Shown: positions 12,603 through 36,880 of the stretch, piece after piece
Position numbering within the stretch: position 1 is the stretch's first letter
Layout of the letters: each line of letters opens with the position of its first letter
Source: Desulfobacula sp.
Lineage (GTDB): Bacteria > Desulfobacterota > Desulfobacteria > Desulfobacterales > Desulfobacteraceae
Length of the DNA: 64,000 nt
Assembly (NCBI RefSeq): GCF_014237455.1
Contig: NZ_JABZFL010000004.1
Span: 1 to 64,000 of the forward strand
Direction of reading: 5' to 3'
The notes under the pieces: generated by a model
The model's database searches: none
What the model saw: only the letters and a program-made list of their open reading frames with translations
What the model was told of the DNA's origin: nothing
Position numbers and translations under genes: made by a program

Positions 12603-14519
12603 TTGGAAAAAAATATCATCTTAGGAACCGCAGGACACATTGACCATGGCAAGACAAGCCTTGTCAAGGCGTTGACAGGGATTGAAACAGACCGGCTCAA
12701 AGAGGAAAAAGAACGGGGCATTACCATTGAACTTGGATTTGCATTACTTGATCTGCCCAATGGACAGCATATCGGCATCGTGGATATGCCGGGCCATGAA
12801 AAATTTGTAAAAAACATGGTGGCCGGTTCCAGTGGAATTGATGTGGTCACAATGGTGATTGCGGCCGATGAGGGTGTCATGCCCCAGACAAGGGAGCATA
12901 TGGAAATCTGCAACCTCATGGGGATTGAGCATGGAATGATTGCCTTGACCAAAATAGACATGGTGGATGAAGATCTTTTAGAGCTTGCCCTTGAGGATAT
13001 CAATGATTTTGTGCAGGACACTTTTCTTGAAGACAAGCCCATTATTCCTGTCTCCTCTGTCACAAATCAAGGGCTGGATGAATTTGTCAAAACCCTTGAA
13101 GCCATCTGCAGCAATCTTCCTGAAAGAAAATTTTCTGCTATTTTCAGGCTCCCGGTGGATCGTGTCTTTTCAATGAAAGGATTTGGCACAGTAATTACCG
13201 GGACACTGACTTCCGGCAGTATCAATACCGGGGATGATATCATGGTCTATCCCAAACGAATTGTTTCCAAAGTCAGGGGTATCCAGATTCACAGTTCAGG
13301 GGTTGATACGGCAGGGCCCGGCACCCGGACAGCCATTAATTTTCAAGGGCTTGACAAGGAATCCGTCAACCGCGGAGATATTCTGTCTACTCCTGACACT
13401 TTGATTGAAAGCTATATGGTGGATGCCCATTTTCTTTATTTAAAAAGCAATGCTAAACCGGCTAAAAACAGAACCAGAATAAGATTTCATTCAGGAACCA
13501 GCGAAATACTCGGATATCTGATACTGCTTGACAGGGAAGAACTGCTGCCCGGAGATGACGCTCCTGTTCAGTTCAGGCTTGAGTCCCCTGTCTGTTGTAT
13601 CAAAGACGACAGGTACGTAATTCGAAGTTATTCACCCGTAAAAACAATTGGCGGCGGTGCCATATTAAATCCGGCCTCCCAAAAGCATAAACTGTTTGAT
13701 ACAACTGTCATCCAAGGGCTGGAGAACCTGTTACTGAATGATAATGATCAAACCATATCCTTCTTTCTTTCTTTAAAAGGATACCAGGGGCTGTCCTTTT
13801 CCCAGTTGCGGGTTATGACCAATATCCCGGATAAAAAATTGAGCGCAGGTTTGCAGAAACTGCTTGCCAAACAACAGGTTATCCAGATCGATAAAGAAAA
13901 GCAGATTTATGTTAATGGCTCCTTTTTTAACGATTTCAAAGAAAAACTCATCCAAAAACTTGAAGTCTACCACGCAGACAACCCTTTAAAGGAGGGCATG
14001 CCGACCCAGGAGCTTAAATCCAAGTTCCAGTATATCGATAACACAAAATTTTTTAATATTCTTTTTACAAAACTGTCCAGGGAAAAACTCATAGTTCTGG
14101 ATAAAAATATTGCAAAGTTGTCTACCCATGAAGTGGCGCTTCAGGTTGATCAGCAGGATGTCAAAGAAAAAATCAAAAAAATCTATCAGGCATCGGGATT
14201 GACACCACCGTTTTTCAGAACCATCTGCCAGGATCTTGATATTGATAAAAAAAATGCAACAGATGTTCTCCATATGCTGATTGATGAAAAAGCCGTTGTT
14301 AAAACAAAGGATGACCTTTACTTTGATTCAAGGGAAATCGAAAAACTTGAACAAAAGCTGATTGCATTCCTGAAAGAGAATGAATCCATCACCACTCCTG
14401 AATTTAAAGATATGACCGGAATATCGAGAAAATATGTCATCCCCTTAATTGAATACTTTGATTCCACCAACCTGACCATCCGTGTGGGAGATACACGGCA
14501 GCTGCGACGAAAAACCTAA
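12603..14519 (+). CDS. selB: Selenocysteine-specific elongation factor SelB
   Basis: SelB delivers Sec-tRNA to the ribosome at UGA codons marked by a SECIS hairpin. The 638 residues show the EF-Tu-like G motifs: [12 protein letters not shown] (8-19), GITIE (39-43), DMPGH (61-65) and TKID (116-119). Next come [18 protein letters not shown] (domain 2) and the C-terminal winged-helix repeats that bind SECIS RNA. The start is TTG 12603, nine bases after GAGGA. selA and selC are not adjacent. The gene gives the function needed by the UGA-containing gene at 32969-33286. Its end overlaps hemW by 4 bp. Confidence 0.95.
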
Positions 14520-32892: not shown

Positions 32893-32912
32893 CCTGCATG
32901 ATTAAAACTAAA

Positions 32913-32952
32913 AGAGAAGGCGTCCACTCATTTTTGGACACCTTCTCTTTTA
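32913..32952. terminator. Bidirectional intrinsic terminator
   Basis: A 14-bp stem AGAGAAGGCGTCCA / TGGACACCTTCTCT with one G-U or A-C position and a nine-base loop has T-rich sequence on its right (TTTT) and A-rich sequence on its left (AAAACTAAAA). It can therefore stop transcripts from both the thiamine pyrophosphokinase and the convergent selenoprotein gene. Confidence 0.8.
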
Positions 32953-32968
32953 AAAAAAACTAAACCTA

Positions 32969-33286
32969 TTAATCTCCGCAGGAACCGTCGGAACCGCAAC
33001 TGGAGCATCCGGATTGTCCCAGTTCAATATTGGAGTCAAGATGGAATCCCATCCCGCTAAAATCTATTTTAATATTTTCGGCTTTTCCCATAAAATCTTT
33101 GTCGACAACAAATTTCAGGCCTTTAACATCAAATGTGTCATCCGTATCTTTCGGCTCATCCAGAGCCATGGCAAGTGAAGGACCACCTCAGCCGCCTGAA
33201 TTGAGAAAAATCCTAATGGGGGTAGGTTCTCTGTCCTGGAAATAGTCATTGATCTGCATTTTTGCAGGATCTGTTAACTCAATCAT
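32969..33286 (-). CDS. HesB/IscA-like selenoprotein (in-frame UGA = Sec33)
   Basis: Read through a TGA at 33188-33190, one 105-residue frame runs from ATG 33286 (after GGAGAG) to TAA 32969. The N-terminal part is IELTDPAKMQINDYFQD, and RIFLNSGG-U-GGPSLAMALDE follows. In the HesB/IscA family the U position is a conserved iron-sulfur ligand cysteine. The C-terminus has the cluster motif CSSCGSDGSCGD. A frame starting at ATG 33169 alone would lack half the fold. A SECIS-like hairpin lies just after the UGA, and selB is in the same window. HesB-like selenoproteins are known in related bacteria. Confidence 0.85.
33153..33190 (-). promoter_or_regulatory. Bacterial SECIS-like element with UGA
   Basis: Beginning 20 bases after the UGA, the mRNA contains GGCUC-UGGAU-GAGCC, a perfect five-base-pair stem with a five-base loop (33153-33167). 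The loop has a G in its second position, and the loop-to-UGA distance is about 25 bases. Both fit the described features of bacterial SECIS elements. The UGA is preceded by GGCGGC. Folding was done by eye only. Confidence 0.6.
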
Positions 33287-33475
33287 TGTAAAACTCTCCT
33301 TATTCGTTTATTTATTTTTCAGGGTTCTTCTGCCTGAATGCTCTAATTCTAATCATGCACCGTCTGCATGTCAATATACTGTACAAAAGATTACAAAAAT
33401 TGTAATATGTACCGTAATTTATTTTTAAAAATAATAAAAAAAACCCGTGAAAACTAAAAAGTATAAGGACTATCC

Positions 33476-35296: not shown

Positions 35297-35881
35297 TTAT
35301 AGCAGCCCTGCATCCTGTTCATCTTCTTCCCATTCAGCAAGGTATGTTTTGATGGCCGCATATTTTGATGATCCCCCGGGTTTAAAAAACAGATATCCAA
35401 GCTGCTCAATCCGGGTTTCAAGACATTGAAAAAAAGCCGCTTCAACCTGCTTTATTTCAATATTATTTTCATCCTTTTCTATTTTATCCAGCACAACCCT
35501 GGTCAAGTGTCCTTTTGGAACAAAAATATCGCAGACAGCAGCATTCCATTCTTCGGGAAAATTATTTATCTTCCACGGGCTTAACGTCTCAGGTCGTAAG
35601 ATACTTTTATTTGCAGGGTTAAAGGGAGATTTGACAATCTTCATTTTCCGTTTATCAAACTGCATCAATTCTTTTAAAAGCGCCTCTATACCATTTGAAA
35701 AAATCCATTCTTCCGGTTCCAGCAGAACAGGAGGGAATTCTTTGCTGGTAAGCGCATATTTGTACGGTCCCTTTTCTCCCCAAACCGTCTTAAACTCCTT
35801 TGAATTGGCAAGTATTTCTCTTTTTATCGGTTCAACAACCATTTTAAAATTTTCCTGATAAAAATTGCCTGGATTTTTCAT
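35297..35881 (-). CDS. Hypothetical protein
   Basis: I do not recognise this 194-residue soluble protein. It is charged, has no signal peptide or membrane segment, and contains EKGPYKYALTSKEFPPVLL, EEWIFSNGIEALLKEL and FFQCLETRIEQLGYLFFKPG. Codon composition matches its neighbours and the frame is intact, so it is likely real. Its 3-prime end lies only 3 bp from the ATP-grasp gene stop (convergent). Confidence 0.55.
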   Translation of the reverse strand: MKNPGNFYQENFKMVVEPIKREILANSKEFKTVWGEKGPYKYALTSKEFPPVLLEPEEWIFSNGIEALLKELMQFDKRKMKIVKSPFNPANKSILRPETLSPWKINNFPEEWNAAVCDIFVPKGHLTRVVLDKIEKDENNIEIKQVEAAFFQCLETRIEQLGYLFFKPGGSSKYAAIKTYLAEWEEDEQDAGLL

Positions 35882-36088: not shown

Positions 36089-36880
36089 ATGACTGAAAGA
36101 TGATTATTCTTTTTTGCAGCAGCTACAGCAGTTCTGGCCGCCACATTTTTTTTAACCGGATGCGTATCCTCAGGACCGCAATTTACAAAACCGGAAGCAC
36201 CGCCTTCGGGCCGATCCGTTGTCTATTTTTATCGTGCGAATAAGTTGCTCACCAACGCGACATCCCCTGGAATCATTCATAACAAGAAAAAAGTGTTGTC
36301 CCTGATGGTCAGCGGAGGATTCTGGAAATATTATATTAATCCGGGTGTCCATGTATTTGAACCCCAGCAATTTGGTCTTTATAAAAAAGTTCCTCTGACC
36401 CTTACCAATGACAAACCCGGGCAGACTTACTATGTTGAGCTGGTGGTAAACATCGGTTATATCGGCTTTCATCTTCGAAGTGAACCCGTGGGGCTTGCCG
36501 GTATCTCCGAATGTTATGAACTTGGAACTGGCTCCAACGGCCAGTCAGGAACCCTGCCGGCCAAAACCGATGAGGCGGCCACGGACAATGTTGCTGTTCC
36601 TGATTCAAAAGAGAAGGCTCAGGCTGAAATCCTGCCCAAACCCGAGCCGGCCCAGATATCACCTGCAACAGGTCCTGCCACGATCCATGTGGTCACCCCC
36701 CCTGAAAATGCCCGAATCAGAATCATGAATATAAAACCCAAATTTCACCAGGGCATTGAACTAAAACCCGGGAAATACCACATTGAAATTTCGGCCGAAG
36801 GGTATTTTACCGAGTCCAAATGGGTGGCCCTTGCAAAGGGAGAAGCCTTGAATCTGAATTTCACCCTCCTGGCCAAATAG
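36089..36880 (+). pseudogene. Lipoprotein (DUF2846/PEGA-like) with in-frame TGA in the signal peptide
   Basis: From ATG 36089, after AGGGAGAG, the frame reads MTER, then TGA (36101-36103), then LFFFAAATAVLAATFFLTGC, a clear type II signal peptide ending in a lipobox Cys. It then runs on to 36880. The mature part has RSVVYFYRANKLLTNATSPG and GQTYYVELVV (DUF2846-like), a Pro/Ala/Glu linker, and a C-terminal beta-sandwich repeat (KPGKYHIEISAEGYFTESKW, PEGA-like). The TGA sits where Trp (TGG) would be natural. I see no SECIS-like hairpin. A start at TTG 36245 would lose the signal. The likeliest readings are a nonsense mutation or a base error. Confidence 0.65.

Follow-up and report, generated by a model that had tools for sequence, protein, structure and literature searches.

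A predicted IscA/HesB-type selenoprotein of Desulfobacula sp. with selenocysteine at the place of a cluster-ligand cysteine

The stretch of Desulfobacula sp. DNA analysed here, 64,000 nucleotides long and referred to below as the window, contains a small gene with an in-frame TGA, and comparison with its relatives makes it near certain that the product is a selenoprotein. We consider it fairly probable that this IscA-fold protein, with UGA codon 33 read as selenocysteine (Sec), carries an iron-sulfur (Fe-S) cluster with a selenolate among the ligands. The gene occupies minus-strand positions 33286-32969; when the TGA is counted as a residue, positions 33286-32972 encode 105 residues, and the frame ends with a TAA at 32971-32969. 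The first-pass annotation had described a TGA at 33188-33190 interrupting an otherwise continuous frame, without naming the strand. Translation of the minus strand confirmed this, the mid-part reading SGG-U-GGPSLAMALDEPKDTDD (SGG-U-GGPSLAMAL) and the C-terminal end GCSSCGSDGSCGD, and the interrupted selenoprotein gene is a real observation. The proper start and ribosome-binding site claimed for it were found as well. The plus strand of 32969-33286 holds an unrelated frame, and no ORF of at least 80 aa appears at the locus in the plain ORF list; any annotation stopping at the UGA would cut the gene short. The features are listed below.

33286-32969, minus strand: coding sequence of the IscA/HesB-type selenoprotein with predicted Sec33, ATG 33286-33284, TAA 32971-32969; matches to NF038090 and PF01521
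33188-33190, minus strand: in-frame TGA, predicted selenocysteine 33; among 132 distinct members 106 have U here and 26 have C
33153-33167, minus strand: putative bacterial SECIS apical hairpin GGCTC-TGGAT-GAGCC; from folding and from pair conservation in Sec versus Cys forms
33296-33300, minus strand: ribosome-binding site AGGAG, 9 nt upstream of the ATG; from the sequence
33346-33374, minus strand: sigma-70-like promoter TTGACA-17-TAGAAT, 11 of 12 matches; a consensus match only
32908-32953, minus strand: terminator-like stem of 19 pairs with a T run; a consensus match only
32978-33007, minus strand: C-terminal cysteine tail with Cys94 (33007-33005), Cys97 (32998-32996) and Cys103 (32980-32978)
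12603-14519, plus strand: selB, Sec-specific elongation factor, not adjacent; TIGR00475, 346.1 bits, cut-off 242.25

The gene is flanked by a thiamine diphosphokinase gene and galE. With a promoter-like site upstream and a terminator-like stem downstream it is probably transcribed alone, as a single-gene transcript. Two further minus-strand ORFs in the window, of 194 aa (35297-35881) and 100 aa (36170-36472), had no match in Pfam or in NCBIfam at E 0.001.

Relatives were collected from genome contigs (57 loci) and from further genomes of the phylum. HMM matches below 40 bits were left out, as were, in one collecting step, those starting past profile position 12, and an ordinary IscA-like protein from Bacteroidetes (L107) was set aside before the alignments. 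Removal of 18 members with identical coding sequence (151 to 133) and of one broken frame, L094, left 132 distinct aligned members. The latter is a Desulfobacula copy (L094:3371-3642) in which the frame breaks in the C-terminal part, either in the gene or in the assembly. A check of homologues for Cys or U at the site had been proposed in the first-pass annotation, and it gave Sec in 106 members, Cys in 26, and no other residue. The host order later yielded a second set, with 28 Sec and 13 Cys forms; the alignment of its most distant member, L168, is unsure. Within the 58 genomes of the host order, NF038090 matched at E 0.001 in 55, and 52 contained a family member that scored above the cut-off and had a single in-frame TGA, as counted from the match rows.

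Absence of selA or selC had been named as grounds for refuting the selenoprotein interpretation; both are present, and selA, selD and the tRNA-Sec gene (selC) were found elsewhere in the genome while selB, as had been noted, stands within the window, about 18 kb from the selenoprotein gene. The selD match (L049, G000:C37:10289-11212) itself contains one in-frame TGA, and the selenophosphate synthetase of this genome is probably a selenoprotein too. As a contrast between genomes selA discriminates little, being present in 51 of 54 chosen genomes with or without a family member; among three genomes with only a Cys form in the match list (G206, G228, G269) it was lacking in one and present in two. 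The opposing view, that the UGA is a true stop belonging to a pseudogene, a sequencing error or an overlapping short ORF, agrees with the lack of a full frame in the plain ORF list. It is extremely improbable in the face of the sel genes, of a site occupied by only U or C in the aligned members, and of a TGA that recurs in the family member of 52 of the 58 genomes of the order, at a fixed distance from a conserved hairpin. The selenoprotein interpretation is supported.

This hairpin, GGCUC-UGGAU-GAGCC, had been reported to start 20 bases downstream of the UGA. It is present at 33167-33153, at a distance from the UGA of 20 nt for the start of the stem and 25 nt for the apical loop, and it is kept in the Sec forms and missing in nearly all Cys forms. 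In a fixed register all five pairs were retained in 95 of 99 distinct Sec segments versus 1 of 26 Cys segments, and in the set fetched after the register had been fixed the numbers were 23 of 28 and 0 of 13. A pair is broken in each of the Sec forms L074, L078, L100 and L132, and in five of the 28 Sec forms of the second set. Codon +9 is CTG in all 106 Sec forms and in 8 of 26 Cys forms, and codon +8 is GCT in 96 of 106 and 3 of 26, respectively. A change of codon +8 from GCT to GTT (Val) goes together with a change of codon +11 from GAG to GAA, by which the pair is kept (two-by-two table 91, 1, 0, 7; since the sequences are related, a Fisher p-value for this covariation is no fair probability). 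The seven Val cases sit at three places in the tree (Syntrophobacteraceae with L145; L127; L130 with L137), and one more GTT/GAA case, L194, was present in the second set. These compensating changes and the conservation of the register support the view that the hairpin is a bacterial SECIS. The score of the hairpin against synonymous shuffles also separates the two forms, with a mean fraction of equally good shuffles of 0.07 for Sec and 0.50 for Cys. The 54-nt fold of the hairpin region in the window has a z of -1.80. Total folding energy was tried as a SECIS test and rejected, the mean z of 45-nt segments being -1.19 for Sec versus -0.94 for Cys forms (p 0.11).

One Cys form, L125 (G206:C1), keeps all five pairs, and no selA match was found in its genome. 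Its hairpin looks like the remnant of a former SECIS after a Sec-to-Cys change, a kind of conversion which has been reported for HesB-like proteins (PMC1794560).

The protein was matched over its whole length by the NCBIfam model NF038090 (IscA_HesB_Se, ‘IscA/HesB family protein’), with 116.1 bits against a cut-off of 85 and residues 1-96 on profile positions 1-101, and nothing essential differs between the two. From its name we take this model to have been built for selenoproteins. The match to PF01521 was also above the gathering cut-off (33.1 versus 26.3 bits), while the scores fell below the equivalog cut-offs of IscA, SufA and ErpA. NF038090 exceeded its cut-off in 168 of 395 genomes of the phylum, and most of the members among the matches listed carry one TGA. 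Membership in TIGR01911 (HesB_rel_seleno) was rejected, as 34.7 bits is below the cut-off of 66.35. TIGR01911, with an archaeal example in Methanococcus maripaludis, is likewise an IscA-related selenoprotein family with the UxGP motif of our protein, and by score it is a separate subfamily. UxGP is given as the motif of the HesB-like selenoprotein listed under TIGR01911 (PMC13188914), and the M. maripaludis protein was discovered by mutagenesis and 75Se labelling, its function being termed unclear (PMC11097638).

That HesB-like selenoproteins are known had been stated in the first-pass annotation and is well borne out, as they have long been catalogued (PMC1794560, PMC1914089, PMC9312934, PMC13188914). 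Eleven bacterial ones, with two Sec-to-Cys conversions, were tabulated in 2006 (PMC1794560), and a HesB family member with an in-frame TGA was described from Desulfovibrio vulgaris (PMC1914089). D. vulgaris DVU_1382 and other deltaproteobacterial HesB-like selenoproteins are probably of the same kind as the protein in the window. For Desulfobacterium autotrophicum at least 31 Sec proteins have been reported (PMC2702500). A curated family of this type already exists, which makes the find less new than had been implied: the protein is a new member of NF038090.

An AlphaFold2 model was computed from 30 aligned sequences with Cys substituted for Sec. Its mean pLDDT was 80.6, with tail residues 91-105 below 50, and the predicted structure superposed on E. 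coli IscA (1s98) with Z 12.4 and rmsd 2.8 over 91 residues at 26% identity. A profile alignment with PDB sequences pairs Sec33 with the conserved Cys that comes first in AQ_1857 and IscA. The predicted fold and the place of the first ligand are thus common to our protein and the canonical A-type carriers IscA, SufA and ErpA (PF01521). The proposal that Sec occupies an iron-sulfur ligand position is the least secure part of the interpretation: the alignment is in line with it, but canonical carriers have Cys at the first place and a CxC in the tail, whereas our protein has Sec33, then C94xxC97 and a later Cys103. Sec33 and these three cysteines are all its Sec and Cys residues. At least three cysteines follow residue 80 in 106 of 106 Sec forms (exactly three in 84), and one further Cys precedes residue 80 in 22 of the 106. 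A CxC occurs in 19 of the 106 Sec forms and 11 of the 26 Cys forms, and is missing in the window protein and 87 Sec forms; as so few members have it, the protein was not classed as a canonical A-type carrier. The UxGP motif is present in all 106 Sec forms. Four Cys members on long branches (L111, L113, L115 and L118) have extra Cys/Gly-rich insertions ahead of the GF motif.

In IscA of T. elongatus the cluster is bound by Cys37, Cys101 and Cys103, one chain giving three ligands and its partner the fourth (PMC6908724). Our protein differs in having four potential Se/S ligands per chain. The carrier role which we infer leans on the family matches, the position of Sec33 on the first cluster Cys of IscA, the IscA-like model and the tail cysteines, and also on the scaffold matches of the genome and the PF01521 matches of the order given below. 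UGA33 would be decoded as selenocysteine by SelB and tRNA-Sec with the aid of the downstream hairpin, a step supported by comparison. The protein would take over an Fe-S cluster from IscU/NifU-type scaffolds encoded in the same genome and hand it on to client proteins. In place of the first cluster cysteine of IscA, Sec33 would act as ligand, and Cys94, Cys97 and Cys103 of a mobile tail would provide the others, so that all four Se/S ligands would sit on one chain. From general selenium chemistry, the selenolate would be expected to shift the cluster potential and to speed ligand exchange. Against a carrier it may be said that most Sec forms have no CxC, that the tail which would supply three of the ligands is modelled with low confidence, that the neighbourhoods compared below show no recurring Fe-S gene, and that the IscA fold alone is no proof of cluster carriage, since DsrR, which has a role in sulfur oxidation and is not known to have the ligand Cys, shares it. 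The match of the model to this Allochromatium protein (PDB 2k4z) reached Z 10.8. A disruption mutant of the M. maripaludis HesB-like selenoprotein was unimpaired in nitrogen fixation, according to an unpublished observation quoted in PMC11097638; that protein is listed under TIGR01911, another family than ours.

The presence of Sec and several Cys within one small chain, usually without the CxC ligand motif, would also suit a selenol-based redox enzyme built on the A-type fold, in which a selenenylsulfide between Sec33 and one of the tail cysteines turns over with thiols or oxidants and no cluster is involved. A redox function is considered likely for most prokaryotic selenoproteins that are still uncharacterised (PMC13188914). 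We regard such an enzyme as possible and clearly less likely than a carrier: Sec33 aligns with the Cys that is the first cluster ligand in IscA, the conserved motif is UxGP and not UxxC or CxxU, and Cys has replaced Sec repeatedly, though either role allows that. The Cys-rich tail together with Sec could also belong to a protein that handles or senses metal or selenium, such as an iron donor or a selenium sensor, and metal-binding roles have been proposed for some other prokaryotic selenoproteins (PMC13188914); the IscA fold and family, and the lack of a recurring metal-uptake or selenium gene among the neighbours examined, make this improbable.

The neighbourhoods were compared by ORF clustering over 76 loci. 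The commonest neighbour clusters, in 38, 36 and 34 loci, came almost wholly from near relatives and correspond to galE, thiamine diphosphokinase and LptF/G (assigned by eye from representatives and window genes). Each cluster found mainly outside the near relatives occurred in at most 8 loci; seven of nine such representatives were searched in Pfam, and gave a sensor kinase, a macro domain protein, FmdE, a nitroreductase, a zinc ribbon protein, a nucleoside diphosphate kinase and a phosphofructokinase. No Fe-S gene recurred as a neighbour in the 76 loci, and with no Fe-S link the gene neighbourhood was set aside as a clue to function.

The NF038090 selenoprotein may be the only A-type-like protein in the host order. 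In its own genome NF038090 found the window gene only, in single copy. The six-frame PF01521 search of this genome at E 0.001 gave no match and did not recover even the window protein, and profile searches there gave four NifU_N/IscU-type matches (two on one contig, C6), no SUFBD core and no canonical A-type carrier. Over the 58 genomes of the order PF01521 gave one match in each of four, a count to be read with the incomplete sensitivity of a search that missed the window protein and the Sec forms of most of these genomes. All four overlapped NF038090 matches, three having the TGA and one (in G425) a Cys. Among 14 control genomes, 9 gave a match above the cut-off in the same search, and one of the five silent controls was a cyanobacterium, in which an A-type carrier would have been expected. 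NF038090 matched weakly, below cut-off, in 8 of the 14 controls, which indicates that ordinary carriers are within its reach too. The absence of other A-type carriers is further qualified by a weak partial match to NF038090 (G423). Many Delta-Proteobacteria were described as being without A-type carriers (PMC2682760), and a search of that paper for ‘selenocysteine’ hit once, in the title of a reference.

Sec and Cys copies of the family were also found side by side. At 16 loci a Cys copy adjoins a Sec copy on the same strand, in both orders and with gaps of 64-702 nt; of the 26 distinct Cys members, 16 are found at these loci. The host order contributes one more pair, the seventeenth (L158). 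The tandem loci are L012, L013, L014, L021, L034, L038, L039, L114, L119-L123, L126, L127, L143 and L158. In a quick tree (96 of 132 rows, 111 columns with the Sec/Cys column included, 24 of 93 inner branches starred) tandem pairs fall at no fewer than four separate places (f25, f26, f43 and f50), two of them as starred sister pairs. By a rough count the tree has 13 changes of the Sec/Cys label, six of them forced by starred branches. The arrangement thus apparently arose several times independently elsewhere in the phylum, and it would fit a joint role of the two copies or a backup under selenium shortage. In the literature searched we found no paper on a Sec/Cys tandem of the NF038090 family. 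A wider picture can be sketched tentatively, and we hold it to be rather unlikely as a whole: throughout the order the A-type role would be held by the selenoprotein, with canonical IscA, SufA and ErpA absent, fed by IscU/NifU scaffolds and with four ligands, a selenolate included, in one chain so that the cluster is unshared between chains, and in the rest of the phylum mixed carriers would be formed by tandem Sec and Cys copies of several origins.

It is the possible sole-carrier role, together with the tandem pairs, that lifts the interest of the find beyond that of a new family member. HesB-like selenoproteins have appeared in lists for about two decades with no role assigned, and the possibility that one of them is the sole A-type-like protein of an order is a testable reason to care about them. 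If this holds, a major group of sulfate reducers may need selenium to deliver its Fe-S clusters.
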